A stretch of DNA of 64,000 bases from Neoconidiobolus thromboides FSU 785 (Eukaryota; Entomophthoromycota; Entomophthoromycetes; Entomophthorales; Neoconidiobolaceae), in contig MU626329.1 in assembly GCA_025603075.1 (NCBI GenBank), forward strand, positions 1-64,000. Direction: 5' to 3'. Below, in pieces: positions 1,769 through 25,195 of the stretch; position 1 is the first letter of the stretch; the number at the start of each line of letters is the position of its first letter. Made by a program: the position numbers and the translations under genes. Under the pieces are notes generated by a model. That model searched no databases. It saw only the letters and a list, made by a program, of their open reading frames with translations, and was not told the DNA's origin.

Positions 1769-1869
1769 TGAGGATGTATTTTTTATTTAAAAGTTTTATT
1801 AGCAATCTTTCTGTTTAAATAGCGCTTAGAAAATAGAAAAAGTGATGAAGCTAAAAAAAGTATCCCCAT
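1769..1869 (+). mobile_element. MITE-like 100-bp element, copy 1
   Basis: Has the family ends (AGGATG...TATCCCC) and the core AAATAGCGCTTA. It sits at the 3' end of a dead receptor gene and supplies that frame's last residues and stop codon. Flanks ATTTG and ATTTT could be a decayed 5-bp target duplication. Confidence 0.8.
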
Positions 1870-2951
1870 TTTAATTTGGACATTTAAACATTTTTGAATT
1901 GATTGATGAACTAATAAAATAAAACAAGATGAAGTAAACCCTAGACAAAGCAAAAAGTAATTGGTCCAAATAACAATATTTATATTAGGATTTGTTTGTA
2001 TTACGCTTAATAAGGTTGCTATCAGATCTGGTGATAAAGATAATATATAGTCTACTAATACGACACTCATTTTAATGACTAATTTGGTTTTTTTAATCTT
2101 AATTGACTAACTATTGATGCCTGAGATTCATCTAAACATAGTTAAAGTATGCCTCTTTGCTTTTTTTGTGTTTCAGTCACTATTTTAATTCCTCTATTGA
2201 TTACAAAATAATATCGTACATCATTGTTAGTGATATCGCTATTAGATTGGTTGTTTCTAAGACGTAAACTTAATCCGTTAAAATAAAACCAAAAACAATA
2301 GAGGAGCCCATTATTCTAAGGTAAGAAAAAGCAATATTGGTATGAAAAAAAACAAACAAGTAATCATGGTGATATTCTTGATGAACTAATGACATAAAAA
2401 AGAAAAGAAAATTTATCATCTTTTCAATATTAATACTTGGTAAACGATAAAAGTTGAATTCTTGCCGTGTATATGAACTAAGTTAACATGTAAATCAGAC
2501 ACTATAATTAATGATGTTGGAGATAGTACTGATAATAAGTAATGATACATTGTATTTACTTGTCTATGTAAATAAATTTTACAGTATTCTATAGTACTTA
2601 AGAAGCCAGATAACTCAACAGAAATAATAATGGTAGTGCTTACTACACTAAAATTTAAAGGATAGTATCAAGTTGGATTGGATACTTATAGCTTACTATC
2701 GACTGTTATGTTGTTTTCAGAAATCATTCCACGTAAATGATGATTACATAGAAAATAATATTGTTAAACGTTAACATTGGTGTTAATATTAATTCTAAAT
2801 TGTTTTTTAGTGATGATTCAATTGGGATTATACTAATTATCAATAGGCTTATTAATAGAGAAATTACTGATATCGTCAAATAAATAATGAATTCTATATT
2901 CATTGCTATCATAAAGTTACAAGCATTGTTTTTGAAACTAATCTCATTCAT
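1783..2951 (-). pseudogene. Group A GPCR-like receptor pseudogene 1
   Basis: The N-terminus is recognisable at 2724-2951 (MNIEFIIYL, as in the intact paralogues) and the last two helices at about 1870-2070, with the family signatures LCLGFTSSCFILL and VHQSIQKC. Between them the frame is broken by several stops and shifts. The CxxP motif of helix 6 reads SLSPD, and the helix 1 Asn is replaced by Ser. The C-terminal 20 or so residues are encoded by the MITE copy at 1769-1869. It is the leftmost recognisable member of the minus-strand array and is non-functional as read. Confidence 0.85.
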
Positions 2952-2995
2952 TTATCAATGTTCTAATTAATTATGAGGGTTAGTTTTTTTATTCA

Positions 2996-3173
2996 TATAA
3001 CAATATAGGCAATTGATATAGACGGCAATAAAGTAGACTTTTATCAGATAGTCGATTTTGATTATATCTAATAATGAAGAGGATTCGAAATGCTTGATTT
3101 TGGCAAATCAAGATTAGCTATCTAATAAGGGTCTACTTTATTATCACCTATATCAATTGGCTATATTGTTATA
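2996..3173. repeat. Long inverted repeat (56-nt arms), hairpin element
   Basis: The left arm at 2996-3051 and right arm at 3118-3173 are inverted copies that match at roughly 85 percent of positions, starting TATAACAATATAG. The 66-bp loop contains a smaller inverted repeat (CTTGATTT...AAATCAAG). It is unrelated to the 100-bp MITE family. It is probably another non-autonomous foldback element, just upstream of the dead receptor. Confidence 0.8.
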
Positions 3174-3349
3174 GTATCCTTTTAAATTAATTTAGGTCGT
3201 AAAAAAATTATGAACTGGTTTTTTATTGTATAATTGTAGCCTAAAATATGAGAATTCTTTGTTTTTAAAAATGCAAAGCCCTTAAGTTCTTATATAAAAA
3301 AGCAGTGGTTAAAAAGGAATGTAAGCTTCTATCTTTGAAATTTGGAATT

Positions 3350-4110
3350 TGGCTTATCAATTGCTCAAACAAGTTCATTTTCATATGAAACTCCTATTTA
3401 ACAAAAAACAGATATAGTATAGATAAGTTAGGTTTTCAAAGTCTTTAAAAAAATCAACATAATCTATTTGTTTAAAGACTAGATAAAAAGAGAGATATTT
3501 TTACATCCAAAAGCAGCTTATATTTTAACTTAACATCACTATAAAAGTATTGGCTAGAATCCTTTATATTTTGAAAGAATTCCAAAACCTTGAGTGATTT
3601 ATTAACAACAAATTGATGAATGTATCATAGGAGAGGAAAGAAACGTCATAAAATGAGCATTTTTTTCAATCTTCTTTCATCTAATCAGATTTTTGTTTAT
3701 TTGAAATTGCCAACCTAATCAACCCTTACTCCGCAGATAAAGAGCACACTGAATTAGCTACATTTCCTTCTACAATGGAAACGCTGACTAAAGTTTAGAT
3801 AAAGAAAATAGAACGTTGAAATTCAGTAACGAGTTTTATGATAAAGATGATCCTTTAAAAAATAATGGTAATACCAGAATGGATGTGATCCCGTTTGCCA
3901 TGTATGATAGCACACTCTTTAAAAAAATAAATAGTTATGAAATTATTAGCACTTATATTAATGACAAATAAAATGAAAGAATAGCGAGAGACAGACAAAG
4001 TAGCTAAAAAATAACCTATAAATTATTAAGTTCGTAGCCTCAAGATATTAAGTAAAAAATGGTATGTAATTTATGGGAGGTAATAATGGCCGATGATGAA
4101 ACTATTGAAA
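3350..4110. repeat. Recurrent degenerate block between receptors (copy)
   Basis: Shares ordered anchors with the DNA upstream of other array receptors: a 'tttgtttaaagact' segment near 3467, then 'gatgatcctttaaaaaataatgg' with an R/K-rich stretch near 3845, then 'aagttcgtagcctcaag' near 4029. Short open stretches suggest a decayed coding sequence on the plus strand, but no family could be named. Confidence 0.45.
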
Positions 4111-4775
4111 TGATTCTAACATGATATTGATGATAGTAGTACCATATCAATACTAAATAAAAAGAAAAAATTGTATTGAGAAGGTCGTATCGTTGATATA
4201 ATTAAGCTATTTTTTGAGGAAAGATTACTATAAAACTTGTTTTTTTAAGGGTATATCCCAAGTATTTTACTTGCAAAAATAAACTTAATTAAAATGAGTT
4301 AATACATACTTCCATTGATGGATGGGCTCCAATAAGTGAGATTTTCCTTCCAGTAAGCTTCTACTTAATAAAAGACAGATTCAAAAAGAGCCAATTGCTT
4401 TTATTTTGCAAAATGGTACCACTAATATATGTTAGTGGTGAGAATTAAAGGTAATATGTATATATGAATATCTTACCTGGAAAGCTGCAAAGCTTTTGTA
4501 AATGATCCAAACATCAGCCTAAAATATAAAAGCTTAAGAAAATAGATACACATAACTTAGATTTTTAAATATTTTTGAGAAATCATCTAACAAATGGATA
4601 ATAGATGAAAAAAAGTTAATGTATCTTTAGTAAAAAGAACTGTATGTAGATGCTAATGGGGAATAAGTAAACAATGTAAAAGTGTGTGAAAACCTACAAC
4701 TAAGTGAATAAAAATGAGGATTGATTTTTACAAAAGGACATGTGTTTATGTAAATAAGCGAATAATAGATCAATA

Positions 4776-5867
4776 TCAATGAGTCAATTTTAATGAGTTC
4801 AAAAAATATCTTTGAATAGGTTGATGGATCAATAAGATAAAACATGACGAGGTAAACCCTAAGCATAACACCAAGCAGTTGGAATAAAAAGCAATATGCA
4901 TAAAGTTCATCTCGGCAAAATTTAATATACCTATTATTAGATCTGGTAATAAACATAGTATATAGCTTATGACTATTACACTCATTTTTACAACCAGTTT
5001 GATTTTTTTAAACTTTAACTGGTCAGCTGTCAATAGATGAGATTCATTTATTTCTAGTTGAAGCATACTTTCTTGATTTTGTTGCGTTAATGCTAGCCTA
5101 TTTGATTTCCTATTAATTATGAATTTATATTGTGTGTTATTATCATTCTTATTATTCAGTTGATAACTATTGAAATAAAAATTAGAGTTTGTAGCAGTAA
5201 CATTAGACGTAATAACGGGGTTCATTATTTTAAAGTAAGCAAGGGTGATATTTATATAACAGAAACATATTGTAACTAAACATATTAAGATTCTCAAAGT
5301 GTAAATGCAGCAGTGAAATATAAGATAAGTCATATTGTTTTTTTCAATATTGGCACTCAATCCACAATAAAAGTTGGCTTCGTACCATGAATATGAATTA
5401 TAATAACCATGCAGGCTAGATAATACAAGTGATAATATAAATGATAGCACTGATAATAGATAATATTTTATTGGTATTGTTCGCTTAAACAAGCAAATTT
5501 TACTGTATCTTACAAAACTTAATAACGCAACTAGGTCAATGGAAGTACCAATGGTAGTAGCTACTATGCTGAGATTTAAAGTACAATACCAAACTGGATC
5601 GGATAGTAATAGCTCATTGTTGAAATTTATAACATTATACTCAAGCGCTATTATGTCAAATATAACATATATGTATAGAATGGTATCAGTGATTGTTATT
5701 ATTAGTATTAATATTGACTCTAAATTGTTTTTTATAGTCAGTTTAGTTATAATTATACTAGTTATCAATAAGTTTATCGATAACGAAACTACTGATATGA
5801 TTAAATAAATTATACGTTCTATGTTCATTGTTATAAAGACAATGTTCAATTTTTCTATTATCTCCAT
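4776..5867 (-). CDS. Class A GPCR-like seven-helix receptor, group A (A1)
   Basis: Intronless 363-aa membrane protein with seven hydrophobic segments. Class A landmarks are visible: Asn32 in helix 1, Asp61 in helix 2, Cys95 at the start of helix 3 and Cys168 in the second outer loop (the usual disulfide pair). Arg120-Tyr121 ends helix 3 in place of DRY, and Cys305-x-x-Pro308 in helix 6 stands for CWxP. No NPxxY is present; helix 7 ends LLIHQPIQ. The third inner loop is long and Asn-rich (about residues 215-285). Paralogues begin at the Met equivalent to residue 14 (5828), so a 350-aa product may be the real one. Such a receptor would sit in the plasma membrane and signal through a heterotrimeric G protein; this is inferred from the family, and the ligand is unknown. 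Confidence 0.85.
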   Translation of the reverse strand: MEIIEKLNIVFITMNIERIIYLIISVVSLSINLLITSIIITKLTIKNNLESILILIITITDTILYIYVIFDIIALEYNVINFNNELLLSDPVWYCTLNLSIVATTIGTSIDLVALLSFVRYSKICLFKRTIPIKYYLLSVLSFILSLVLSSLHGYYNSYSWYEANFYCGLSANIEKNNMTYLIFHCCIYTLRILICLVTICFCYINITLAYFKIMNPVITSNVTATNSNFYFNSYQLNNKNDNNTQYKFIINRKSNRLALTQQNQESMLQLEINESHLLTADQLKFKKIKLVVKMSVIVISYILCLLPDLIIGILNFAEMNFMHIAFYSNCLVLCLGFTSSCFILLIHQPIQRYFLNSLKLTH

Positions 5868-6088
5868 TTATCAATGCTTCAACTTAGTCATGCAATTTGA
5901 AATTATTATCTAAAAACTAATTAATTCCAGAGAGGGTTTACTGGTAGATTAGTATCGCATTTTGGCTGATATGCATATATTCCCTTTTATTATGGCTAAC
6001 AAGACACTTGGGGCTTTCGCATTTCAAAAGGGTAAAATACTAAAAAGTCAATTTGAATTAGGAATTATTACTAAAATATTATGATTTT

Positions 6089-6197
6089 ATATGGGGGTGT
6101 TTTTTTTTTTACTTCATTACTTTTTCCATCTTTTAAGCGTTATTTGAGCGGAAAATTTGCTAGTAAAACTCTTAAACACAAAAATACATCACCATAT
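6089..6197 (-). mobile_element. MITE-like element, copy 2
   Basis: Inverted copy starting ATATGGGGGTG and ending CATCACCATAT, with the core in reverse orientation (AAGCGTTATTTGAG). It faces copy 3, 330 bp away. Confidence 0.85.
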
Positions 6198-6289
6198 CCT
6201 TAAATGAGGTAAAAAGCCTTTAAGTGCTTTATTAACATGTAAAGTAAAAAATTAATTAACATAAAGAAGAAAGCTCAAAAATGATAGCA

Positions 6290-7020
6290 AGTTTCTGCCC
6301 ATACTACACATCATTGCTCGAAGTAAGTTTTACATAAACTTGTTTTCCACGTAACTTTCATAAAGGAGTATAAAGTTTTACAAAATAATTTTCAAGTGTT
6401 ATTAAAAAAGTAAGAATAGGTGTTTATTTGGAAATCAAATAAAATGACATCTATTCTTATATATAACATGAGTTTGGATAAGAGTTTATTAGCAACATAA
6501 AAGCATCGATTGGGTTTTAAAGTCAATATACGAGGATATATTTTTTTACTTAAGGATCTTACTAACAATCTTTCCGCTCAAATAGCGTTTAAAAAATAGA
6601 AAAAGTAATGAAACTAAAATATCCTCATATAATAGTAAGAGGAGTTAATAAGCTAAACAATCATGCTGATGCTTCAAAGGGCTATAGTAAGGCTTTAATG
6701 AAAAATCATATCAGTCATAATCCGTTTTAAAATAAATATATTTACAAAATTGACATCTTTTATCTTAATAGCTGATAAGATGAAAGCAGCAAAAGAGAAA
6801 TATAGGATAGCCGAAAACTAAACCAATGATTTTGGAGTTTGTGACTTTGATATAAGAAAGAAATATGAAAGAACATATAATTTTAGTGATTGGATATTAG
6901 CTAATAATATTATTTATATAATGGTTTGTACAGTGATTTGTGCTTAATACTGACGATAATGGTATCAAGGTAGAAATAACAAGAAAGTAAATAAAAAGTA
7001 AACATAAAAAGTTAAGATAA
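6290..7020. repeat. Recurrent degenerate block between receptors, interrupted by a MITE
   Basis: The left part matches the block near 8600 and 19370 ('acataaacttgttttcc'). The right part carries the anchor 'gagtttgtgactttgatataag' near 6837. MITE copy 3 lies in the middle. No product is assignable. Confidence 0.4.
6528..6631 (+). mobile_element. MITE-like element, copy 3
   Basis: Ends are CGAGGATAT and ATATCCTCATAT, with the core CTCAAATAGCGTTTAAAA. It is inserted in the degenerate inter-receptor block. Confidence 0.85.
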
Positions 7021-7113
7021 TATAATTTTATTATCTCAGCAGAAAAACAACTCATTCTAATAAATAAACAAAATTTACTTGTTACTCAAATAAGAAAATA
7101 GTAGTATTAAACT

Positions 7114-8172
7114 TTAATGACTAAATTTCAAGCATTTGAAGAAACACTTTTGAATCGGTTGATGGATCAATAATATAAAGCATGAGGAGGTAAACCCTAA
7201 ACATAGTAAAAAACAATTAGAATAAAAACTAGTATGTATATCATAGTTTGTCTCTGTTAAACTTAATAAAGTTACTGTTAAATCCGGTAATAAACTTAAC
7301 ATGTAAAATGTTACTACCAGGCCTATCTTTAAGGCTACTTTAATCTTTTCTAATCTTAATCGACTAGTTGTTAGTGGCTGGAATTCATTTAGATATATTG
7401 GAAGGATGGTGCCTTGGTTTTTTTGTGTTGTCATTGTTACCTTTATTTCGCGATTAACTACAATATCATATTGCACGTTATTATTATCGCTATTGCTATT
7501 AAACCGACTGCTATTAATAAATAAATTTGGTTTTGTAGTGTTGTCATCAAAGACAATAGAAGGGTTTAATATTCTAAAATAGGCAACAGCAATACTAAAA
7601 TAACAAAAGCAAATAACGAAAAAGCAGGGTAAAATTCTAAATGAATAAACTGAATAAAAAAATACAAAATAAATTGTATTGTCCTTCTGAATATCAATAC
7701 TTGGTAAGCAATAAAAATTCACCTTATCCCATGAATAAGAATTATGATAGCTAAATAAACTAGACAATACAAGCGACAACACAATCGATATTGCCATTAA
7801 TAAATGACATCTCATCGGCGCTATTTCTTTAAATAAACAAATTTTTACGTATCTTATAATTCCTAATAAAGCAGATAACTCAATGGAGGTAACAATAGTA
7901 GTGGATATAAGACTAAAATTTAAGACACAATACCAAGTTGGGTTGGATATGAGTAGCTCATTATCAACTGCAATTATGTTATATTCAACCATTGCTAGGT
8001 GTGAAATGACAGTTAAATAAAAAATAATATCGTTTATAGCTATTGTTGAAATCATTACCAATTCTAAATTATTTTTTAGTCTTAATTTAGCTAGTATTAT
8101 ACTGATTATTGATATGTTTATTAGTATTGAAATCGTTGAGACTATAAAATAAGTTATATATTCTATGTTCAT
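7114..8172 (-). CDS. Class A GPCR-like receptor, group A (A2)
   Basis: Intronless 352-aa seven-helix protein starting MNIEYITYF. Landmarks are Asn19, Asp48, Cys82 and Cys155 (presumed disulfide), and Arg107-Tyr108 after helix 3. The helix 6 motif reads Ser-Leu-Leu-Pro (293-296), so the Cys present in the other intact members is replaced by Ser here. Helix 7 is LCLGFTSSCFILLIHQPIQ, followed by a short tail with Cys residues that could be lipid-modified. The inner loop between helices 5 and 6 is about 70 residues, Asn-rich and poorly conserved. It lies in the array with both neighbours in the same orientation. It is intact, and G-protein coupling is inferred from the family. Confidence 0.87.
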   Translation of the reverse strand: MNIEYITYFIVSTISILINISIISIILAKLRLKNNLELVMISTIAINDIIFYLTVISHLAMVEYNIIAVDNELLISNPTWYCVLNFSLISTTIVTSIELSALLGIIRYVKICLFKEIAPMRCHLLMAISIVLSLVLSSLFSYHNSYSWDKVNFYCLPSIDIQKDNTIYFVFFYSVYSFRILPCFFVICFCYFSIAVAYFRILNPSIVFDDNTTKPNLFINSSRFNSNSDNNNVQYDIVVNREIKVTMTTQKNQGTILPIYLNEFQPLTTSRLRLEKIKVALKIGLVVTFYMLSLLPDLTVTLLSLTETNYDIHTSFYSNCFLLCLGFTSSCFILLIHQPIQKCFFKCLKFSH

Positions 8173-8579
8173 TATTATTGTAAAAGTTAAAATTAATTAA
8201 AATTGCTACACTTTTCATTTATAAACTGTCTCGAATTATTGTATTCTCTTATTCACTTAGTCAGTCTTACTTTCGTATTTTGCTCCTTTGAGTGGTTTCC
8301 TCTTACCCTTATTGCTTTACCTTTTGATGTTTTTTGCATGAATAAAAAGTTATCATAATGGGTAAAAGCCGAAAAAATGTTTCAAATTGATAATACTCTT
8401 TAAAACTATAATTAAAAAGAAATTTTAGGCTATGTAAAACTTTGATTTTCTTATATTGGAAATATCGCTAAATAATTATATGATTTTATATTCTCAAGAA
8501 AGTTCAAATGGCTATTGATATATAGAAGCTGAAAGGACTATAAATTCAACGAAGAACAAGGGTTAAAAAGGATGACTTC

Positions 8580-9170
8580 CTACTATCATTGCTTATTATT
8601 AACCCAGTGTGGTTCCGACAAATACATTTTTCCTTGCAGGTTTCATTAAAAAGGATAAAATTTATATGAACTAGCTTTTTGAATACCAGTAAAAAAGCAT
8701 GGGAGTTTATTGTTTAAAAGCTAAAGTATACAGCTATTTTTACAAACAGAGTTAGTTTAAATAGAGACAGCAACAGAGGAATCAACTAGGATTTAAACCC
8801 AATATTAGTGTTAAAATAATTAACAAATGGATGAAGAGGATGCTCTAAAAAATAACGATGAAATTGGAACGAAAAGTCGCTATCAGTGATGTCACGCTTT
8901 TAAAACAAACATGGTTATAGAAGTGTATTTTTTAGTAGCTAAAATGAAGTTAACCAGAGAGAAAGGATAAAATACCCAGAAAATTAATCAATGTGTATGA
9001 AGTTTGTGACTTTAACATAACTAGTAAAAATAAGAACATGTGGATTTAAAATAATTTGATAGTGGTTGGCAGCACTCTAGTAGAATTGTTTGTGATATGA
9101 CATTGGTAATAATGCCATTACGGAAAAAAACAATAGTATTTTTTTTTTAATTGTTTCAGAAAAAATCTTA
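8580..9170. repeat. Recurrent degenerate block between receptors A2 and A3
   Basis: One of the best-preserved copies. It lies between the 5' end of A2 and the 3' end of A3, with all anchors in order: 'aaaaaggataaaatttatatg' near 8649, 'gctatttttacaaacagag' near 8732, 'gatgctctaaaaaataacgatg' near 8839 and 'gaagtttgtgactttaacat' near 9000. Several frames contain short open stretches but none is continuous. It reads divergently from A2 if the plus strand is the sense strand. Confidence 0.5.
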
Positions 9171-9222
9171 TTGAAAGGCTTTAGTCAAGTAAAAAAAAAC
9201 AATAAAGGTTAACAGTAATACT

Positions 9223-10275
9223 TTATTTTAATTTCAAACATTTAAAGAAACACTTTTGAATAGGCCGATGGATTAATAAGATAAAACAAGAAGAAGTAAA
9301 CCCTAAGCATAAAATAAAACAGTTTGAGTAAAAGGTAGTTTGCATATTGAAATTCGTCTTTGTTAAACTTAATAATGTTATTGTTACATCTGGCAATAAG
9401 CATACTATATAACATACTATTATCAAGCTTATTTTCAAGATTAACATAACTTTTTTCAACCTTAATTGATTGACTGTTGGTGACTGAGATTCACTTGAAT
9501 TTATTTGAGTGATGCTTCCCTGTTTTTGCGATTCTACCATCGACTTGTTGCTTTCTCCATTAATTGTTAGTTTATATTGTATAAGACCACTACCCTCATT
9601 ATTAAGTTGATAGTTGTTAATGCGTGAATTTGAATCTATTGCTGTAGTGTTAAGAACAATCGAAGGGTTCATTATTCTAAAATATGCAATCATAATATTT
9701 GAATAACAAAAGCAGACGATGAGTAGACAAATCAAAACTCTTAGTGAGTAGATAGTGTAAAATAATGTAAAATAAGTTGTATTATCTTTCTCAACGTCAA
9801 TACTTGGTACACAATAATAGTCTAATTCGTACCACGAATAAGAGTTGTAATAACTGTGGAAACCAGATAATATAAGCGATAATGCCACAGATATTAATAC
9901 ACATATATAATAACGCATTGGTTTTACTTGTTTAAATAAACAGATTTTATTGTATCTTATAATACTCAATAAAGCAGCTAATTCAATAGAAGTAACAACG
10001 GTTGTGACTATCAGGCTAAAGTCCAAAGCACAATACCAAGTTGGACTAGATACTAGTAGCCCATTGTTAACTGAAATCATTTGAAACTCGACTCCTATTA
10101 TATGTGAGATGGCTACTATGGAATAAATAATGTCATTGATGGCGATTATTGATATTATTATTAGTTCTAAATTGTTTCTTAATTTTATTTTAAACAAGAT
10201 TATACTGCCTATTAACAAGTTTATTACAATAGATATTATAGATATTATTAAATAAACAATATATTCTGTTCTCAT
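9223..10275 (-). CDS. Class A GPCR-like receptor, group A (A3)
   Basis: Intronless, 350 aa, seven hydrophobic segments. It carries the full set of group A landmarks: Asn19, Asp48, Cys82, Arg107-Tyr108, Cys155, and Cys292-x-x-Pro295. The outer-loop signature YYNSYSWYELDYYC is typical of the group. Helix 7 ends LLIHRPIQKCFFKCLKLK, a basic, Cys-containing short tail. The start Met aligns with the paralogues' first residues (xxTEYIVYL), and no upstream in-frame Met is needed. It is intact and probably functional; the ligand is unknown. Confidence 0.88.
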   Translation of the reverse strand: MRTEYIVYLIISIISIVINLLIGSIILFKIKLRNNLELIIISIIAINDIIYSIVAISHIIGVEFQMISVNNGLLVSSPTWYCALDFSLIVTTVVTSIELAALLSIIRYNKICLFKQVKPMRYYICVLISVALSLILSGFHSYYNSYSWYELDYYCVPSIDVEKDNTTYFTLFYTIYSLRVLICLLIVCFCYSNIMIAYFRIMNPSIVLNTTAIDSNSRINNYQLNNEGSGLIQYKLTINGESNKSMVESQKQGSITQINSSESQSPTVNQLRLKKVMLILKISLIIVCYIVCLLPDVTITLLSLTKTNFNMQTTFYSNCFILCLGFTSSCFILLIHRPIQKCFFKCLKLK

Positions 10276-10909
10276 TATTGTTTTAAAATAAAAACCCTAA
10301 AAAACCATTGTTTTGTTTATCATTTAAAAGTGCCTTATATTATCTATTCAAAATCTTGATTAATTTGTGTCGATCCTTTTATATTATAGTTGCTTTAGTT
10401 TTTTTGTGACTTATTTAATGGCTCATTTTAATAAAACTATTTTAAAAGTTGGTTCAAGTATTAATGGTCGATATTTAAAAAATCAGGTGTGTAAGTAATT
10501 CAACTATAAAAATTATTGTTAAAAAAGCCATAGAAGAGCTGCAACAGCCGTACTAATCATCACTGAAATTACTATTACTCTTTTATATCCTTAGAGATGA
10601 AAAACTTAAATAATTTGTTGAAAAATAAGTAAAAAAGAAATTAACAAAGAAGCGAGAGGGTTAGAATCTAGTATTTTTCTTTTTTTTTGCCACTTATTAC
10701 CAGTATAGCGTTTTTATCTTGATTTAGAATGTGAAATATTGTTGGTTAGTATGATTGAATCAAGCTTACTATTCACTGTCTGTATAAAAATTCTAGTAAA
10801 CTCAGCAAGCTTAACACTCAAATTGGTAAACAAATTATATATAGTGAAAAATTTAAAAAGTTAACAAAGTTAAAATGGAAGTGCTATATAATCATAGTCT
10901 AAGTGAATG

Positions 10910-11014
10910 TATGGGAATATATTTTTGTGTTCAAGAATTTTATTAACAATCCTTCTACTCAAATAGTGCTCAAAAGATGAAAAAGTAATGAAATCAAAAA
11001 AAACATCCACGTAT
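10910..11014 (+). mobile_element. MITE-like element, copy 4
   Basis: Begins TATGGGAATAT and ends ACATCCACGTATA, with the core CTCAAATAGTGCTCAAAA. It is intergenic between receptors A3 and A4. Confidence 0.85.
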
Positions 11015-11019
11015 AGTTA

Positions 11020-11480
11020 ATAGGGTAGAGGAATTTTGTTTTAAAGCCAAACGAGAGAAAAACATGCTTTATTATAATTAAAAATAGATTTTATAGGATT
11101 TAGGGACATCATTGAGAGATTAAATATATGTAAAGTCAAGACAAATCAGTAAATGAACTAATAAACTAGATAATTAAAATAGTATCTAAGGAGTAACAAT
11201 GGGGCCAATAATAAAAAGTAGCTGTCTGTAGTAGAACACTTTTGAAAACACTCATCACAGATTAACATCACTTTTACTACTGATTAAAAAAGGCGGAAAA
11301 AGATAATGGATTACATGACTGAAAATCAAAATCATGAGTTCTAAAGTCTATGACATCAAGATAATAGACAAGTACTTAAAAGCTATAGTATCTAATGAGA
11401 CTAATGAGTTTCATAAACACTTTAATTAAAAGATTTATGATGGAATATTTATAGCAATAATAGAATTAAATACGAAAATA
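11020..11480. repeat. Recurrent degenerate block upstream of the A4 3' end
   Basis: Weak copy recognised by 'aataaactagataattaaaa' near 11158 and 'aaagtctatgacatcaag' near 11343, the positional counterparts of the anchors near 8835 and 9000. It is strongly decayed. Confidence 0.35.
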
Positions 11481-14239: not shown

Positions 14240-14299
14240 TACATATATCTAATATTTCAGGAGAGAGTCCTCAAGTTAAATGTTTTAGTTAAGTAAGGA

Positions 14300-15312
14300 G
14301 AGATAAATAAACTTTTCAATTAATAAAATAGAACATTAAGGGGTGAGCCCTAAGCAAAGTAAAAAATTATTGAAATATATAGTAATATGGGCATCAAAAT
14401 CTGCTTTTGCCAAAATTAATACATTTACTATTAGATCCGATAATAAGTATAAGGTATATTTTACCATTACTATGCTTATTTTCAAGATCAATTGATCCTT
14501 TTTAGACCTTGATTGATTGCCAATAACTAAGATTGGTTTAATTTTGGTTGAAAATAACTTGTTGACTTTATTGAGCTTTCAGTAGCTCATTGGATCCACC
14601 ATCAGCCATAAGGCTATACTGCTCCCTACTATCATTATTGTCATTAAAACGATAGTTACTAAGGCATAGATTTGAGTCCAAAGTGGCATTATTAAGAGCA
14701 ATACAAAGGTTCATTATCCTACTATAAGTAAAAGTTATATTTGTATAATAAAAGCAGATGGTAAGCAAGCAAAGTAAAATTCTTAACGAATAGATCAAAA
14801 AATAAAATAGATACTAAGACTTGTTATTTTTCTCAATATTGATACCTGGTAAGCAGTAAGAGTCGAACTCATCTCATGAACATGACTTATAAGAGCTATC
14901 CAAACTAGATAATACAATTAATGTTGTAGCAGATAATGTCATAAACATATAACAAGGAATTTGTGCTGCTTCTTTAAACGAGTGGATATTCTTGTGTTTT
15001 ATAATACTCAATAAATCAACTAGCTCAGTGGAATTATTAATGATACTATTTATTAAAACAAAAGTAAAGGAACAATACCAATTTGGACCGGATAGCTGTG
15101 GCCCATTATTAAATACGATTACGCCATACACAACTATGTTTATATACAAGATGACAATTAGATAAATGATAATACCAATAAAAGCGATCATTAATATTAT
15201 TGTTGACTCTAAATTACTACTTATGATTAATTTATATAGGATTACATTTAATATCAATGAGCTTATTAGCAACGAAATTGATAAGATTTTTAATTATGTT
15301 TTCAATGACCAT
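14300..15312 (-). pseudogene. Group A GPCR-like receptor pseudogene 2
   Basis: Recognisable along its whole length but broken. An ATG at 15310-15312 starts MVIENII, then the frame shifts. The stretch at 14874-15272 covers helices 1 to 4 with the conserved NWYCSF Cys; the helix 3 end is changed to IIKH, losing the Arg-Tyr pair. A stop lies in the second outer loop. The stretch at 14568-14798 covers helix 5 and the inner loop. The part left of 14560 is the degenerate helix 6-7 region. At least two lesions are visible. It is closest to A6 by eye. Confidence 0.85.
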
Positions 15313-15539: not shown

Positions 15540-16170
15540 TACTTGCCATTAATCAGTTATAGTCTAGACAAGCTTATTGAAAAAGCAAGGCAGCCATTTT
15601 GTTTAAAATCTAAACAAAAGAAGAAGGACTATTCTTACAACCTAAACGAGCTTAAACAAAGATGTATCTTTATCATAGGATTTTAAATAAAACAGTTTCT
15701 TATTAATGATGTAAGGAGCTATAATCAACATAAAGATGTTGGTTGGAGTTCAAATAGAAGATAAAACATTCAAAACAATTAATGAATCAGATAATAGAGG
15801 TGATGGTTTAAAGAACAGTAATAAAATTTAAATGAAAAGTATGTATCAACGACAATAAGCTTTAGAAAACATTGTTTTAAAAATGTTACTGTTTCTTTTA
15901 CTAATTAATAAAAAAAGGACATGTTTAGTATTTTATTAAATAAAGCGAGAGTTTAAGATTATTTTCAGATTTTTGAAAAAATCATTAAGATAGAAAGGAT
16001 GAAATAAAGTATGAAATAATAAAAAACTAAATAATAAATCATGAGTTTGTGATTTAAGAAATTGAATAAATCGAAGAGAGATGCGACTTGAGTAAAGTGG
16101 TAGCACTTGTTAGCAAAACTATTGAAATAAAATATAATGTGTTACTGAGAACAATATTAATATAATAAAA
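15540..16170. repeat. Recurrent degenerate block between pseudogenes
   Basis: Anchors are 'ccattaatcagttatagtctagac' near 15547 (matching 23935), 'attcttacaacctaaacgagc' near 15632, 'gatggtttaaagaacagtaat' near 15802 and 'gagtttgtgatttaagaaattg' near 16048. It has the same order as the copies at 8580 and 23920. Confidence 0.45.
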
Positions 16171-16232
16171 AAATAACAAAGGAAAAAGAAAAGATTAGCA
16201 TTATTAAAATGAATCAACTATTTCCAAAAAAA

Positions 16233-16341
16233 CATATGAAGATATTTTTTTTGATTTCATCACTTTTTGCATTTTTCAAGTGCTATTTGAATGGAAAGAT
16301 TGGTAGTAAAGCTCTTGAACAAAAAAATACAGCTCCATGTA
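16233..16341 (-). mobile_element. MITE-like element, copy 5
   Basis: Degenerate ends (ATATGAAGATATT...CAGCTCCATGTA), with the reversed core CAAGTGCTATTTGAATGG. It lies between the degenerate block and the split receptor pseudogene. Confidence 0.75.
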
Positions 16342-16427
16342 TTAAAAGACTTCCCCGTTAAACAAAAGGGGATGAGGAATCTAACATTACAATAAAAAAG
16401 GTTGCTACAAGCAATATCAATTTATTT

Positions 16428-16925
16428 TAGTTTGAAACAAATAAAGAGGTGTTTTCGAATCAGCTGATGGATTAGCAGAATAAAACATAAAGAAGTAAGA
16501 GCTAAACATAATATCAAACAAAGTGAAAAATAATGCAGAAACTTAGATTTGTGTCTGCCAAGCACAATAAAGTTACTATCACGTCTGGGAGCAAATATAA
16601 TATATACTTTATAATCACTACGCTTGTTTTAAAATTAATTCAACTTTTTTTAACCTCCACTGTGTAACTTTTGGTGGTTTAGACATGTTGAAATTTAGAT
16701 GAAGAATGGCGTGTTGCTTTTGCTACAACATCAGTAACCTACTCGCTTGTTTGCTTTTAAATATCATAGTTTACCCCACTGATATTATTACCATTATTAA
16801 ACTGTAAGTTATTATAACATGAATTTGAGTTGTGATAATTAGGTATATTACATAATACAAGTGATATTATAATGGATAATTTTATTAGCATACAATAATA
16901 TATTGATGTTACTTCTTTTTTTACA
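16428..16925 (-). pseudogene. Group A receptor pseudogene 3, C-terminal part
   Basis: Carries degenerate helix 6, helix 7 and HQLIR-like tail sequence, then the inner loop, then jumps to a helix 4-like piece ending at the KEVTSI segment that follows Arg-Tyr in A5. The helix 5 region is deleted. Its broken edge near 16922 corresponds to about residue 113 of A5. The missing N-terminal part lies at 18594-18937, beyond the LINE and MITE insertion, so the two pieces are one gene. Confidence 0.75.
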
Positions 16926-18487
16926 GAAGTACGTATTTATGGTAGTGTTTATTTCGAAAGAAAGAAAAAATCTACTCAACAAGATATATTAGAGATAATA
17001 AAGAAAGGTAAAAGCTTTAGCATCAGTTGAAGCCTTTGGGTCAAAACGCCCTACTTCAAGAATTCTTCTATCAATTTTGGATTCATTCAATCTAAAAGTC
17101 ATTAAAAAGGGTTTACTAATAATAAAATGTTTCCGTTTGAAAATAAACAAAGCCATAAGAACTGAATCACACTTCTTTCTAAATGTCACTTTATAACAAA
17201 GTCTATTGATAATACAAACTACAGGTATTGTAGTAAGAGGGAGTTAGGGGTTGGAACAAAGTAGAAGCAAATTAGGAATGAAAGATGAGTTGTTGCCGCA
17301 CATGATGTCATCACTATTAATAATATTATCTACAATTTAAGAGACAGTTAGCTAAATTCTCTGGATGTAGGCGCAGTTGAAGAAATGGTGATCGGAACAA
17401 TCATTAAAATCCATACATTATAGGCAGGATGGAGAGGCAATATCATCATATGAAGCTACTTAGTAATATGTATAGAAGCCATCTTCTATGGTTCTCTAGA
17501 GCGCTAGGCCTAATCTGGGATTGGGAGTCTCGTTGTTAAAATTATATACCCCTCGAGATAAGATGGTATTTTTAGGAAGTCTTAAGACATTATAGGATCC
17601 TTTATTGACACGGACAATAAAGCCATTCAAGAATTTATAATCGTTTTTTTTGCAATTCTACACAATGTCTGATAACTTTTAATTAAAGCCTTGGATCATG
17701 AGGAAAGAATTCTGGATCCAGGTGGCGAATATAAACAGTTAGTGGTGCTTTTAGGAGCCTTTTTAATGGGTACTGCATGAGACCATAAGCCAACAAAACC
17801 TTATCACTAAAGTGCTTCAAAGCTATCTCCGAAGTATCTGACCCAGGATTTCTGAATCAACAAGTAATTCATGAATCAAGGAGAAAGAAACCCAAAGCCT
17901 TTATCGGTTTTGAATGTTACCAGTTTTCTAAATAAGATTTTAAATCGTTTATTATTCCGAATCAAGGAAGTGGCTACTTTTTTGATTTTTTTAATGTCTG
18001 GAAGGACAAGAAGGCAAATGTGAAGACAGTACCACAAAACCGAAAGAGTGTCATTGTTGATAAGCAGTACTCTTTCTTTTAATGAAACATTTTTAATATT
18101 CCAGCTTACTAATTTTGATTCAAAGCAGGAAATACAAGAGTTCATCATAAAGCTGTCTTTAATACCTAAGTGAGAAATATATATATCTAAGTGACCTATA
18201 TCATCTCCTTGATCACATACTGGTACATTATAGTCAAGATTTGGGTTAAAGTTTAGAGCCTGGGATTTATCTGTGTTTTTACTGCCCCTAATAGCTTTAG
18301 TAAATGATCGCCAGGTAAGTTCATTCAAACCAGAGTCACTTTAGAGCTCAGATCAATATATCTGTCCCCTGCAAAAGTGGCTACTTTAAACACCGAAGTT
18401 TGTGACAGAAGATGGAAGCCTTTTAAGTTATAATTAAGATAGCTAAAGATATGGTTTGTACTAATTATCCATATGAAAATTTTTAGT
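16926..18487 (-). mobile_element. Degenerate LINE (non-LTR retrotransposon) 3' fragment
   Basis: The open stretch at 17876-18328 reads like the C-terminal region of a LINE reverse transcriptase (VSLKERVLLINNDTLSVLWY, then LPDIKKIKKVATSLIRNNKR). Downstream on the minus strand, in other frames, come a conserved-looking YGLMQYPLKRLLKAPL segment and a Cys/His stretch (CMDFNDCSDHHFFNC, about 17390-17430) that fits a zf-RVT domain. Stops and frame changes show it is dead, and no 5' part is present. It interrupts the receptor pseudogene whose pieces flank it. The clade of LINE is not determined. Confidence 0.7.
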
Positions 18488-18593
18488 ATATGGGAGTGTT
18501 TTTTTGGTTTCATTATTTTTTCCATTTTTTAAGCGCTATTCGAGTGGAAAATTTATTAGTAAAGTTCTTAAGCACAAAAATGCATCCCCATAC
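18488..18593 (-). mobile_element. MITE-like element, copy 6
   Basis: Near-consensus copy (TATGGGAGTG...CATCCCCATA), core reversed. It sits exactly at the junction between the LINE fragment and the N-terminal receptor fragment. Confidence 0.88.
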
Positions 18594-18937
18594 CTTGTAA
18601 TCTTAATAAAGCAGTTAACTCGATAGTAATAATGAAGTTGTTTATTAAACTAAAGTTTGGAAGGCAATATCAATATGAATTAGATAATTATAGCTTTTCA
18701 TTAACTACAGTTACGCCATAATCAGCTAATGCTAAATATAATACAGTCGCAGGATAGAGAATGGTACCGTTGGCAGTTATTAATATTTTGATTAGTCCCA
18801 TTTGTTTTTAATTTTGTTTTAAAGATAGATATGGTAATTATTAGTAGACTTGTTAGTAGCAAAATTGTTGAGATTACCAAATAAACTCCATCTTCTATGT
18901 TGTTTACTATCATTATAAAATTAAATATAGTTTTCAT
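18594..18937 (-). pseudogene. Group A receptor pseudogene 3, N-terminal part
   Basis: ATG at 18935-18937, then a helix 1-like segment (GVYLVISTILLLTSLLIITI), degenerate helix 2, and a helix 3-like IELTALLRL ending where the MITE begins, at about residue 107 of the intact paralogues. It is frameshifted after helix 1. It matches the fragment at 16428-16925 as the other half of one receptor gene. Confidence 0.75.
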
Positions 18938-19359
18938 TCATAGATGTTCTAAATTAATTGTGCTATTAGATATAATTATATAAATGTTTTTTTAAATTTA
19001 TTGAGGCTAAAAATAAATTAGCTCCGAAAATGCTCCACTAATGGGTTAGTCCCGTAAATTAACTGACTTGCATGTTTATTCCTCCGTATTGTAGCTAATA
19101 AAGTACTTGGTGCTTCGGCATTTATTTTTTTAAACCAAATGAATCGTGGTGTTTATTCATTATAAAAAGTTGGGCTTCAGTATTTTAAAAAATAAGGGCT
19201 CAATTAAAGAGTTAATTCATAATATACTATCACTAAGATATTATTGGTTCTATATCCTTAAATAAAGTAAAACTTTTAAGTGCTTTACCATATTACACAA
19301 AAAGAGGATTAGCACAAAGAAGGTTCAAAAAGAATATTACCTTTACATTTTTATCATTT

Positions 19360-19760
19360 ACCACTTGCCCAATTGTAGCCTAGATAAATGTGTTTTCCCT
19401 ATAGAGTTTTTATCAAAAAAGATAAAATTTATACGAAATAACCTTTTAAATATTACTAAAAAGGCATAAAAATCTGATTGTTTAAAGCAATCAAGTAGGG
19501 CAGCTATTGTTACAAATAAAGTGAGTCAAAATAAGAATAAATTGGTAATACAAAGGCATTTATCGAGATTCAAAGTCAACAAAAAGTAGAAACATTTAAC
19601 AAACTGGATGATAAAGATTTTACTTTAGATAATAATGGCGAGGTTGGGACGAAATGAGTCTGTTACTAATAATACACTATTTGTAAAATTACGAGTGCCC
19701 ATACTGGTAACTAGTAAGTAGGAAAGCTTAACAAATGTACTATAAAATAATTAGGTAATG
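19360..19760. repeat. Recurrent degenerate block upstream of A5
   Basis: Anchors are 'aaaaaagataaaatttatacg' near 19418, 'gcagctattgttacaaataaag' near 19500 and 'tttagataataatggcgagg' near 19623. They match the block at 8580-9170 in order and spacing. Confidence 0.45.
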
Positions 19761-19891
19761 AAATGATGTACTATTTAGTTTATGGCTCTACAATGTTGAA
19801 GTAATATGAAAGTCTAGAAGATTTAGCGAGACAACTGCAACTGATAATATAATTATCGAAGTGATATATGATACGATGCTTAAAATGATGG

Positions 19892-19991
19892 TATGGGGAT
19901 GTATTTTTGTGTTTAAGAATTTTGTTAACAAGTTTTCTGCTCAAATAGCGCTTAAAAGACAAAGTGATGAAATCAAAAAAAACTTTCATAT
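19892..19991 (+). mobile_element. MITE-like element, copy 7
   Basis: Starts TATGGGGATGTATTTTTGTG. The core CTCAAATAGCGCTTAAAA is intact; the 3' end is worn (AACTTTCATA). Confidence 0.85.
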
Positions 19992-20150
19992 TGTAACCAA
20001 AAATGTCAAAAAGTCATATAAAAGTTTGTATCTAAAAAATTATTATAATTAGATTTATTATCCTTGTAAAAGTAAGAGGAAAAAACCCTCTAATTAATCA
20101 ATGGAAGACTTTGTACTATTTAAATAAAAAAACAACAGTGTTAATCTTAA

Positions 20151-21206
20151 CTATTTAATTTTGAACATTTTAAAAAAAGAATCTTGGATCGGTTGATGTA
20201 TTAATAGAATAAAACATGCAGAAGTAAGCCCTAAGCATAATACTAAACAGTCAGAATAAAAAGTAGTATTCTTATTAAATTTTGGGTTTACTAAACACAG
20301 AAACGTTATTATTACATCCGGTAACAAACATAACATATAACTTATTAATATCACACTTATTTTTAAAGCTAATTTGGCTTTTTTTAAGCTTAACTGAGTA
20401 GCTGTCGACTGAGATTTGTTTGGGTTTTCTGAGAATACAGTTTCTTGCTTTTTTTGTGTGATTGCTAGCTTGTCAACTCTAACATTGTTTGTAAAGTTAG
20501 ATTGTAAATTGCTCTTATTGCTATTATCATTATCAAATTGATAATCAGTAAAACGTGTATTTAAACCTGTGGAATAATTATTAAGAATGATAGAAGGGTC
20601 CATTATTTTAAAATATGCAAGAGTGATCTTTGAATAACAAAAACATATGATGATTAAAGAAAGTAAAATTCTTAACGTATAAATAGAAAAGTAGAATAGA
20701 AAATAGTCCCTGTTGTTATTCTCAATACTGATACTTGGTAAACAAAAAAAGTCTAGCTCGTGTATTGAATATGAGTTATAATAACTATGTAAACCAGACA
20801 ATATAAGTGATAACATAATGGATAACACAACTACTATGTAATAATTCATTGATGTTACTTCTTTATATAAGCATATCTTACTGTACCTTATAATACTTAA
20901 TAATGCAGATAACTCAATGGAAGTAATCTCAGTAGTAACTACAGCGCTGAAATTAAAAGCACAATACCAAGCAGGAACTGATAGCGATGGTTTATTATCG
21001 AATTGAATCAAGTCATGTTTGATTATGATTATATGCGAAATGGTTAATAGATAAAAAACAATATCATTTATAGTAATAAATAAAATGATTATTAGATCTA
21101 ACTTATTCTTTAACCTCAGTTTGAATACTATTATACCACTTATTAATAAGTTCATCACTATCGAAATGAGAGATATCAACAAATAAATAGTGTGTTCGGC
21201 TTTCAT
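20151..21206 (-). CDS. Class A GPCR-like receptor, group A (A5)
   Basis: Intronless, 351 aa, seven hydrophobic segments. Landmarks are Asn19, Asp48, Cys82, Arg107-Tyr108, Cys155, and Cys293-x-x-Pro296. The second outer loop reads YYNSYSIHELDFFC, without the Trp usual in the group. The inner loop (about 205-275) is rich in Asn and Ser. The tail is short, KMFKIK. By eye it is closest to A4 and to the split pseudogene at 16428-18937. It is intact, with a clean start aligned to the paralogues. Confidence 0.88.
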   Translation of the reverse strand: MKAEHTIYLLISLISIVMNLLISGIIVFKLRLKNKLDLIIILFITINDIVFYLLTISHIIIIKHDLIQFDNKPSLSVPAWYCAFNFSAVVTTEITSIELSALLSIIRYSKICLYKEVTSMNYYIVVVLSIMLSLILSGLHSYYNSYSIHELDFFCLPSISIENNNRDYFLFYFSIYTLRILLSLIIICFCYSKITLAYFKIMDPSIILNNYSTGLNTRFTDYQFDNDNSNKSNLQSNFTNNVRVDKLAITQKKQETVFSENPNKSQSTATQLSLKKAKLALKISVILISYMLCLLPDVIITFLCLVNPKFNKNTTFYSDCLVLCLGLTSACFILLIHQPIQDSFFKMFKIK

Positions 21207-22590
21207 TATTATTATGAGTGATCAATCAGTATTTTCTTGTTTTTATATTCTTTTTAATTCTTTTTGATTCTTTTGCATTAATTAATTCGCTAAAGATAGT
21301 ATAAACTAAGGTTTTAATAAATTCTCACTTTAGTATAATATAAATTTAAATTGAGATATTAGATAAATTCCTTTATGCTATTAATATTTACATACATGAA
21401 CGGAGGTAAATTGCCCATTATAATAGAGGGTGTTTTTAATCACTAATATAGTTGTGTTTTTTTAAATTATTCAGCCAAATTTTTCCTTTATTTGGAAAAG
21501 GCTTCTTTAGGTATCTCAAATAAAGGAAAATTTTGGTTGAATAATTTAAAGTATAGTTGTGAAGAGCAAAGCTATTCTATTTGAGTTTAACAGAATGCAC
21601 TTGTTGCTTTAGAACTTAAGGTTTTCAAAAAAGAACAAAATTATTCTCAACTAAAAGTAACTTTTTACTGCAGCTAATAATATGCCTATTTTTATATGCA
21701 TAAACATCCGTAGCATAAATGGACCTATCCACTATAATAAATTACAAAATTAGTAAACATACGCCTTTTCTGGAAACATTTGGCATGGTTTATAATAATG
21801 AAAGCATAGTTTTTATGTTGTTTTGTTGAAATATCAAATTTAATTAACAGATAAATATGAGCACCAAATAGTAGGTTATCAATAGATAAAAATAGTCTTT
21901 TTTAAAAAAAGGTTATATTTTCCCTACTGGTTGGAACTTAATTTCAGTTTTATTACAACTCCTTATTTAGTTCCTTAAAATCCTTTATTGTTTGTTTCTA
22001 CTGGAATCTGGGTCTTACATAGAATATTTTATAGTGTAAAATTCAAAGCTATTGACTTGTCACCCCTATTTTGGTCCTGGTTATTTAATGAAAAACATTA
22101 GCTTTTTGTGGAAGTAGGTATGCTTTCATTGTTGGTTCTCAAACTAAATATAGTCCTAAATAGTTATACAGCCATTTTTTTCTCCCTGAGGTTTTAGGAT
22201 TGACTTTTCTTTACATTCTTTTAGTTATGTTTTTTAGAGACAAATCACTGCTTTGCTTTTTAAGCATAATACGTTTTAAAAACAAGTGTATCTTCAAATT
22301 ACATTATTTGATTTAATTGAACTGTTATTTTATCAGACTAAAGTAAAATAAATTAATATTTCAGTTATATGGTGTGGTTTTTATTTGCTTTTCTTTATCA
22401 TATATTAAAATTTTTGAAATTATTTTTGTAGCTACTGTAATTTTAGATATAATTTAGTATCAATGGCTTTAAAGTAAAAAATACTAAAAAATTAGTATCA
22501 ATAAAGCTGATGTGATAAAACCTTTATATCTCAGGGAAAATATTTAATTTAAATGCTTTAAACAAATAAATAAAATATTTTTTTATTTAA
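21207..22590. other. Gene-free stretch between A5 and A6
   Basis: Contains the foldback element at 21447-21561 and otherwise AT-rich DNA. Neither the recurrent block nor a MITE copy was recognised, unlike most other inter-receptor gaps. Confidence 0.5.
21447..21561. repeat. Small foldback element with 10-bp flanking direct repeats
   Basis: Inverted arms of about 32 nt (21462-21494 and 21517-21549; TTAAATTATTCA...TGAATAATTTAA) enclose a 22-bp loop. The unit is bracketed by the direct repeat TATAGTTGTG at 21447-21456 and 21552-21561, which looks like a target-site duplication. It is unrelated in sequence to the 100-bp family and to the hairpin at 2996. Confidence 0.75.
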
Positions 22591-23670
22591 TTAAAAGACT
22601 ATAGTATTAAATTTTAGTGATTTAACTTCAAACATATTAAAAACACACTTTTGAATTGGTTGATGAATTAATAGAATAAAACATGAAGAGGTGAGCCCTA
22701 AACACAGTATTAAACAATTAGAATAAACAGCAATATGTATTTCAAATTTTACTTTTGTTGAAATTAATAAATTTATTATCAGATCTGGTATTAAACAGAA
22801 CATGTAACTTATCATTATTAAGCTAATTTTTAACATTAATTTTACTTTTTTTGACTTTAATTGGTTAGCTGTCAATGGCTGAGATTTGGTTGACTTTTGC
22901 TTATAAATAGTTTTTCGGCTTTGTTGAGTTGTCATTAGCCTGTTAGATTCAGTACTGCTTATAAAATTATGTCGAGTGTTATTGCTATTGTTTTTAGCAG
23001 ACTGATAGCTACTAAAGCACAAATTTGAGCCCGTAGCATTCGTATTAGGACTAAAGGAAGGATCCATTATTTTAAGGTAAGCAAGGGTAATATTTGAATA
23101 GCAAAAACAATTGGTCAGTAAGCAGAGCAAAATCCTCAATGAGTAAATGAAATAATAAAATATACAATAAGGTACATTATTCTTTTCGATATCAATGGTT
23201 GGTAAATAATAGAAATTGAATTCATACCATGAATACGAACCATAATAGCTATGTAGACTTGATAGTACAATTGATGTTACAGCAGATAATGCTATGAATA
23301 TATAGCAGTACATTGGTGAGATTTCCCTAAATAAACAAACTTTACTGTATCTAATAATGCTTAATAAGGTAACTAATTCAATGGAAGTAGAAATGATACT
23401 AGCTACTAGGCTAAAATTCAGGGCAGGATACCAAATTGGGTTAGATAGCTGTAACTTGTTGTCAAATGATATTATACTATACTCAGTTAAGATTATATGT
23501 AATATGGCGATTAAATAGAAAATAATATCAACAAAGGTAATTGTTGATATTATTAACAAATCTGGGTTGTTTTTTAGACTTAGCCTATATAAGATTACAC
23601 TCAGTATCATTAAGTTTATCAGTAACGAAACTGTCGAGATTATCAAATAGATTATGTTTTCAGTGATCAT
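22591..23670 (-). CDS. Class A GPCR-like receptor, group A (A6), lacking the conserved disulfide
   Basis: Intronless, 359 aa, starting MITENIIYLI. Helices and landmarks are otherwise normal: Asn19, Asp48, Arg107-Tyr108, Cys292-x-x-Pro295, LCLGLTSSCFILLIHQPIQ in helix 7. Both cysteines of the expected helix 3 to outer-loop disulfide are gone: position 82 is Pro (WYPALNF) and position 155 is Tyr (NFYYLPT). The tail is about nine residues longer than in paralogues. The frame is fully open, so either the receptor folds without the bond or it is a recent pseudogene without stops yet. Confidence 0.85.
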   Translation of the reverse strand: MITENIIYLIISTVSLLINLMILSVILYRLSLKNNPDLLIISTITFVDIIFYLIAILHIILTEYSIISFDNKLQLSNPIWYPALNFSLVASIISTSIELVTLLSIIRYSKVCLFREISPMYCYIFIALSAVTSIVLSSLHSYYGSYSWYEFNFYYLPTIDIEKNNVPYCIFYYFIYSLRILLCLLTNCFCYSNITLAYLKIMDPSFSPNTNATGSNLCFSSYQSAKNNSNNTRHNFISSTESNRLMTTQQSRKTIYKQKSTKSQPLTANQLKSKKVKLMLKISLIMISYMFCLIPDLIINLLISTKVKFEIHIAVYSNCLILCLGLTSSCFILLIHQPIQKCVFNMFEVKSLKFNTIVF

Positions 23671-23919
23671 TGTTATTTTGAACTTAAAAACGAGCTTTAT
23701 TTCATTTTTTATATTATTTATTAATGTTTTAAAAATTATGCTATTTGAACTTATTATTCAAAAGTACCCTTTTAAATTAATTCAGATTGTAAAAAATTAT
23801 TATGGCTTTATATTCTTAAGAGAAAATGACTTCTTGTGCGCTATTAATGCATGAAATTAAGGTAAATTATTAACGCAAACAACAACAAATGCCAAAAAGG
23901 ATAACACTTTTTAAATTTT

Positions 23920-24640
23920 ACTATTTATTGTTAGTCAGTTATGATCTAGACAAACCCACTTTCTTTTCAACTTTTGAAGAATGAAAGAACTAGTTTACAT
24001 GAACCAATTTTCAAGTAATGTTTAAAAAGGATTGCTATCTTATATATTTAAAAGTTGAACGAAAAAGGAAAACCTCATAAACAAATTTGGCTTAAATTTG
24101 GTTTATTTTTGTTGAATTGTTTATAAAACATTAACCCATTCAAGACCCAAGGTTTCCCTTAAAATAAGGACTTATTAGTACCATGAAGATACTGATTAAT
24201 ATTTGTATTTAAGTCAAGATTTTCGAAATACTAATAATCTAGATGACACCAGCAATATATTAAAACAGAATGGTATGGTTTTGATGAGAAGCGGTATCAC
24301 TATTGATGTGTTTTAAAGATCATTACTTTAGGTGAGCTATTATTTACATTATTAATTAGTAAGTGGAGATACATTCGATACTTTTTAAGTAAACCATTTC
24401 AAGGCCTAAAACTCTTTTGAGGTTTTTAAAAGCAACGAGATGAAAAGAATGGAAGACAAATAATAGAGTAATAAAAAATGAAGTAATAAGTTAGAGGTTT
24501 GTGACTTTAAGTAACTGAATAAATTTAAAGGAGATGTGATCTAAAAACAGTGATTTACAATATTAAACTGATATTATAATATTATACCAAAGAGTAATAG
24601 TAAAAAAAGCTAGTGCTATTAAGGCGATTTAGTTATCTTT
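23920..24640. repeat. Recurrent degenerate block upstream of A6
   Basis: Anchors are 'gtcagttatgatctagac' near 23935, 'ctagatgacaccagcaatat' near 24239 and 'gaggtttgtgactttaagtaac' near 24490. It is the last copy of the block at the right end of the array. Confidence 0.45.
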
Positions 24641-24649
24641 GACAAAAAA

Positions 24650-25195
24650 GCCTACATTAAAAGTCTTAATGCAATAATCAAGTAAAACAATACGAAATAA
24701 GCCTTGTTATCTTTGTTGATATCAATATTTGGTAAACGATAAAAGCCTAAATTACACCAAAAATATGAGTCATAATAACAGTGTAAACCAGATAGTATTA
24801 ATCACAATATAACTAATAAAGCCCCAAACAAACAATCATGCGTTGATACCATTTTTTTATAAACAAATTTTATTGTATCTTATGACACTGAATAAAATAG
24901 CTAATTTAACAAAAGTAACGATAGTTATCACTAACTAACATTTGAATGACAATATCAGGCTGGATTGTATACTTGTAACTCTTTATTAGCTATAAATACC
25001 TTATAGTTAGCTAGCATTATATATAATATGACAATAAAATACAAAATGATACCATTGATGAGTACCATCAATATTATTGTTAATTCTAAATTGTTTTTAT
25101 GGTTAGTTTACAAAAAATTATATTTAACAATAACAAGTTTATTAGTAGCGATATTGTTGAGCTCGTTAAATAAGTTATGTGATCTACATTCATTA
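24650..25195 (-). pseudogene. Group A GPCR-like receptor pseudogene 4 (N-terminal half)
   Basis: Starts ATGAATGTAGATCAC, equivalent to the paralogue start. Helices 1-4 and the second outer-loop region (NIDINKDN side) can be followed with several frameshifts, and the match ends in helix 5 near 24650. Helices 6 and 7 are absent. It is the rightmost group A remnant. Confidence 0.75.

Follow-up and report, generated by a model that had tools for sequence, protein, structure and literature searches.

We analysed a window of 64,000 nucleotides, namely positions 1 to 64,000 of contig MU626329.1 (assembly GCA_025603075.1; C72 in our genome labelling) of the fungus Neoconidiobolus thromboides FSU 785, a member of the Entomophthorales. 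Its left part holds a tandem array of genes for seven-helix proteins, which the evidence below supports as class A (rhodopsin-like) G-protein-coupled receptors (GPCRs). The copies were located as open reading frames (ORFs) or by tblastn with the intact copies.

1873..2909, minus strand: broken array copy, near full length, in pieces in three frames (tblastn; stops counted)
4776..5867, minus strand: intact array receptor of 363 residues (ORF), within the clade of seven array-type proteins
7114..8172, minus strand: intact array receptor of 352 residues (ORF); the protein database has a 292-residue form, P0003
9223..10275, minus strand: intact array receptor of 350 residues (ORF), modelled as a class A GPCR; the protein database has a 285-residue form, P0001
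11748..12803, minus strand: intact array receptor of 351 residues (ORF)
14306..15293, minus strand: broken array copy with a frameshift and stops (tblastn)
16425..16936, minus strand: broken array copy holding the later portion of a gene read as split (tblastn)
18598..18937, minus strand: broken array copy with the opening part (up to about residue 105) of what is read as the split gene of 16425..16936 (tblastn)
20151..21206, minus strand: intact array receptor of 351 residues (ORF)
22591..23670, minus strand: intact array receptor of 359 residues, lacking the two cysteines that form the class A disulfide (ORF, alignment)
24655..25193, minus strand: broken array copy, residues 1 to about 182 only (tblastn)

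The six intact genes are intronless and run from ATG to stop over 350-363 codons between 4.8 and 23.7 kb; the chance of one 350-codon open run at the local base composition is about 1.5e-13. Reading 16425-16936 and 18598-18937 as a single gene interrupted by about 1.66 kb, 4 of the 10 array copies are broken, and the ORF and tblastn results thus agree with an earlier note on this DNA, which had counted six intact and four broken copies over 23 kb. That note also gave a single orientation, which holds for the array but not for the whole cluster, as five further intact relatives that it did not list lie on both strands at 35.7-53.7 kb and make the cluster larger. These were identified from genome matches.

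35713..36750, plus strand: intact subfamily relative of 345 residues
38032..39078, plus strand: intact subfamily relative of 348 residues
41188..42216, plus strand: intact subfamily relative of 342 residues
44254..45276, minus strand: intact subfamily relative of 340 residues
52632..53678, minus strand: intact subfamily relative of 348 residues

The 9223 copy is 51-59% identical to the other five intact array proteins and 25-31% identical to the five relatives. The protein database returned models for only two of the six intact array genes, each of them short (285 and 292 residues); the other four likely lack public models, which is not certain because the search was word-limited. A 466-residue database protein on contig C2 seems to be a fusion of two copies. 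The array reaches near the left end of its contig, and the right end of contig C201 carries a broken array-type copy (33372-34342), so that the array may extend past an assembly gap onto C201, although the adjacency of the two contigs is a guess only.

The structure predicted for the 9223 copy is a seven-helix class A bundle with a hairpin in the second extracellular loop and a helix 8, and it matches class A structures across the whole bundle. Compared with prostanoid, serotonin, glycoprotein-hormone and opsin receptors, identity was 11-17%, and rows whose Z scores differ by less than 1 count as ties. Profile-profile comparison with accepted 7tm_1 receptors gave a full-length link over 300 columns at a probability of 99.1%, and the array proteins have pairwise homology to a 7tm_1-positive relative. 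Together, the model, the profile link and this homology support class A identity. Seven-helix proteins of another family, a transporter or an enzyme, could resemble GPCRs and would suit the lack of a direct Pfam 7tm_1 match; on the other hand, the match to class A structures over the entire bundle, the profile link, and the class A residues at 1.50, 2.50, 3.50, 5.58 and 6.50 with the 3.25-45.50 cysteines make such an origin exceedingly improbable. Transporter and enzyme identities were rejected by the structure-model comparison, and no non-class-A family is among the 50 VIA rows listed, which is not an exclusion. Neither a non-GPCR fold nor an unrelated seven-helix family, the outcomes that the earlier note had named as speaking against its proposal, was encountered.

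The array belongs to a larger subfamily with at least 22 intact members in this genome, the identical set being obtained from two queries, one per branch. The 22 comprise 7 array-type and 15 other relatives and exclude three weak hits that belong to receptors from different branches (two on C75, one on C110) and all copies with stops; the subfamily counts are lower bounds. Broken subfamily copies were also found, and copies occur on contigs C2 and C201 as well. Three protein database searches listed 3, 6 and 2 matches, the named ones being from N. thromboides and the others from the window itself. The second of them missed intact relatives from the same genome, and these searches are therefore no evidence that other organisms lack the subfamily.

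We built a tree of 50 receptors of this genome, the 22 subfamily members and 28 others, the latter being all 26 non-subfamily matches that pass the 7tm_1 cut-off and two that fall under it, with nine weaker matches left out. The 22 members form one clade and the seven array-type genes another within it, each with a support of 100, and both clades persist when the three signature columns described below are removed. Branching inside the array has a support of 26-60, and therefore we claim no order of duplication. A separate local cluster of four 7tm_1 receptors from a different branch lies on contig C237 (4935-14406).

Residues are numbered by the Ballesteros-Weinstein scheme, in which class A positions have customary roles, and were assigned by aligning the sequences at the landmark residues Arg-Tyr, Tyr5.58 and Pro. 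Asn1.50, Asp2.50, Arg3.50, Tyr5.58 and Pro6.50 are each present in 22 of the 22 intact members, as is the Arg-Tyr after helix 3. The cysteines at 3.25 and 45.50 occur in 21 each, and the 22591 copy lacks both, as expected if they pair in a disulfide; the Cys preceding Pro6.50 in helix 6 is kept in 19. No member has NPxxY, and Tyr7.53 is absent from all 22 and from all 28 others. These counts bear out the set of shared residues, including the missing NPxxY, that the earlier note had read from the array.

The customary acid of the DRY motif at 3.49 is lost in all 22 (Met in 14, Ile in 7, Val in 1), whereas 18 of the 28 other receptors have Glu there. Pro7.50 is kept in 2/22, compared with 23/28, and the Trp6.48 toggle switch in 0/22, compared with 2/28. 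Every member has an acid at 3.41 (Glu in 20, Asp in 2) and Arg at 5.46, neither of which occurs in any of the 28 others. The subfamily signature is thus acid 3.41, Arg5.46 and a hydrophobic 3.49, common to all 22 intact members found, and within this genome the 3.41/5.46 pair sets them apart from the 28 other receptors examined.

Six other receptors without an acidic 3.49 group with the subfamily (support 91, or 79 without the signature columns) and among themselves (76 and 75). The earliest branch within the subfamily consists of the three members on contig C218, two of which retain Pro7.50 (86 and 83). Because of these placements, the sequences suggest that the acidic 3.49 was lost first, in common with the sister group, that the pair was gained next, and that the NP was lost later. 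As all 22 members descend from one ancestor, the 3.41/5.46 pair counts as a single event, not as many independent ones.

Under three codon models, the seven array-type genes had a whole-tree omega (the dN/dS ratio) of 0.26-0.35, compared with 0.07-0.12 in the remaining 15, and pairwise dN/dS in the array group was 0.16-0.34 at dS of 0.96-2.09. Because these values are well under 1, the intact copies look to be under purifying selection. In the array group, the best kept segments are the inner parts of helix 3 (81%) and helix 7 (91%). With 4 of 10 copies broken, stray copies on C2 and C201, and an array-type omega of about 0.26-0.35, the birth-and-death pattern proposed in the earlier note fits.

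The broken copies and the higher omega of the array group than of the 15 relatives, a contrast made rough by saturation in the latter, could instead mean that the array is a decaying relic of duplicated copies that are now unneeded. We consider this improbable, since the six intact copies are still open over at least 350 codons with pairwise dS values between about 1 and 2, omega is well below 1, and identity across the inner half of helix 7 reaches 91%.

The genome has three sites with G-alpha matches above the cut-off and further, weaker G-alpha matches, as well as three matches to regulators of G-protein signalling (RGS), and therefore a signalling pathway is available. It is plausible that the array genes encode putative GPCRs for outside chemicals, with predicted G-protein coupling. 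An outside chemical would bind among the helices, helix 6 would then swing, and helices 3, 5 and 7 would use their inner ends, together with Arg3.50 and Tyr5.58, to activate one cellular G-alpha. Several diverged receptors could in this way discriminate between related cues that come from a substrate, a host or a partner. The positions 3.41 and 5.46 are close to each other in class A receptors, and the acid and Arg5.46 may form an intramembrane ion pair between helices 3 and 5, which would compensate for the missing acidic 3.49, Trp6.48 and NPxxY.

The signal could also be self-made, for mating or development, rather than an outside chemical. Genome searches gave no match to STE2 or STE3, so another receptor might fill their role, and many diverged copies could suit recognition of many partners. 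However, the same searches were equally silent in control genomes and introns can split matches, so that they do not show STE2 and STE3 to be absent. For the six array proteins, the Pfam families listed at E <= 1 include neither of those for the fungal pheromone receptors, PF02116 (STE2) and PF02076 (STE3). On this evidence, a mating or developmental role is unlikely, though less so than a relic.

Opsins are among the solved chains matched by the profiles, and a survey of Entomophthorales, in the portion available, places 7tm_1 among light-sensitive domains (PMC11105155). Nevertheless, the retinal-binding lysine at 7.43 is present in none of the 50 receptors (22 subfamily members and 28 others), and opsin identity was rejected; light sensing by the array proteins is thus strongly disfavored and can be given hardly any credence.

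Taking these together, we favor the joint reading that the array is a tandemly duplicated class A branch of N. thromboides, encoding chemical-sensing, G-protein-activating receptors with a compensating 3.41/5.46 pair, to which we assign a probability of roughly 0.6. The fold, the 7tm_1 homology, the tandem gain with copy loss, the purifying selection and the subfamily signature are its supported parts. Several observations weigh against it. Class A membership leans on intermediates and the model, because none of the six array proteins has a direct PF00001 (7tm_1) match above the cut-off and a profile made from the array only found no solved structure. The 7tm_1 check called for in the earlier note thus came out negative for direct matches and positive for the profile-profile link: the Pfam scan of the six gave only sub-threshold matches, to two domains of unknown function in one protein, and 3 of the 22 subfamily members (L025, L028, L032) match PF00001 above the cut-off. 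Trp6.48 and Tyr7.53 are rare in the other receptors too, so their loss is no marker for the branch. Since dS is near saturation, the omega values are rough. The most variable segments of the array group are the third inner loop and the third extracellular loop, and in the seven array-type proteins the outer helix halves do not significantly exceed the inner ones in variability (p = 0.086), unlike in the 15 relatives (p = 0.005), which makes this a weak point for chemoreception. Finally, E3.41 of the beta-2 adrenergic receptor contacts the lipid interface, according to the part of that study at hand (PMC10104803), which does not suit a buried pair.

A further step, which we offer as tentative and somewhat doubtful, is that the branch rebuilt its activation switch, with the 3.41/5.46 ion pair holding the off state or joining in ligand binding, and so became a tandem-duplicating chemosensory family.

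Animal class A chemoreceptor arrays, olfactory ones and those of some nematode families, are tandem and intronless, gain and lose copies, and keep live copies under purifying selection, and the present array resembles them in all of these. It differs in that diversification of the outer helix halves is not significant in the array-type proteins, and it is known from genes alone.

Rhodopsin-like receptors had been taken as rare in fungi in the earlier note, which fails for this lineage. The surveys, as far as their available parts go, count many in Entomophthoromycotina, unevenly: 125 GPCRs in Conidiobolus coronatus and 28 in C. obscurus (PMC12387763), 99 genes in Entomophthora muscae that have the rhodopsin-family domain (PMC11105155), and numerous rhodopsin homologs for the subphylum as a whole (PMC12842992). 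These rhodopsin-class receptors (7tm_1, 'Class 15') are like the array in subphylum, class and large numbers. Pfam-based counts would pick up 3 of the 22 subfamily members through their 7tm_1 matches and would miss the remaining 19. Krishnan et al. (2012), in the excerpt consulted, described 12 rhodopsin-like receptors with ERY and NPxxx in three chytrid or blastoclad species (PMC3251606). Those receptors share with the subfamily the Asp in the second transmembrane helix, the Cys pair, the Arg-Tyr and the lost Tyr of NPxxY, but they have D/ERY and NPxxx, whereas all 22 subfamily members have Met, Ile or Val at 3.49 and only 2 of them keep Pro7.50. The receptor kind and its expansion are thus already known in Entomophthoromycotina, and the array is a derived branch; no description of the array or its signature was found in the one open-licence library searched.

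Other elements accompany the receptor genes. A dispersed element of about 95-110 bases with inverted ends lies at 6520-6630, at 18480-18598 and at some 22 further sites (such as 61031-61133), with 24 matches to one query in the window and more than 2,000 first-look candidates genome-wide, 40 of them scored. It looks like a miniature inverted-repeat transposable element or a similar short mobile element; that this repeat of about 100 bases, found near several array genes, is a gene part was rejected, as it is dispersed genome-wide. The insert at 16937-18597 in the split gene, perhaps a transposon remnant, contains a 154-codon ORF with one distant partner in the genome and no Pfam family match. 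Related ORF pieces at 786-956 (minus strand) and 26325-26522 (plus strand) flank the array in opposite orientation, with 59% identity over 46 residues; neither these nor the ORFs left of the array match Pfam. Two repeat-rich, secreted-looking ORFs, at 47732-48508 and 49257-50789, contain DEPKK repeats (with a stretch read as X) and TxT-rich repeats, and have no Pfam match. A CAP-domain protein (56230-57162) and an ML-domain protein (58417-58926) are encoded near the receptors.

N. thromboides is a relative of insect-killing moulds, and its receptors share their class with animal receptors for hormones, smell and light. Surveys give counts of rhodopsin-class receptors for these fungi but, in the parts available, name a known ligand for none of them. 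Because none of the 50 receptors has the retinal lysine, 7tm_1 counts in these fungi should not be taken as light sensing. The altered switch positions separate the branch and make it a good test case for class A evolution outside animals, and its compact set with a shared signature pair offers a testable route to class A function without DRY, Trp6.48 and NPxxY. The array also lets one ask whether tandem chemoreceptor arrays arose outside animals.
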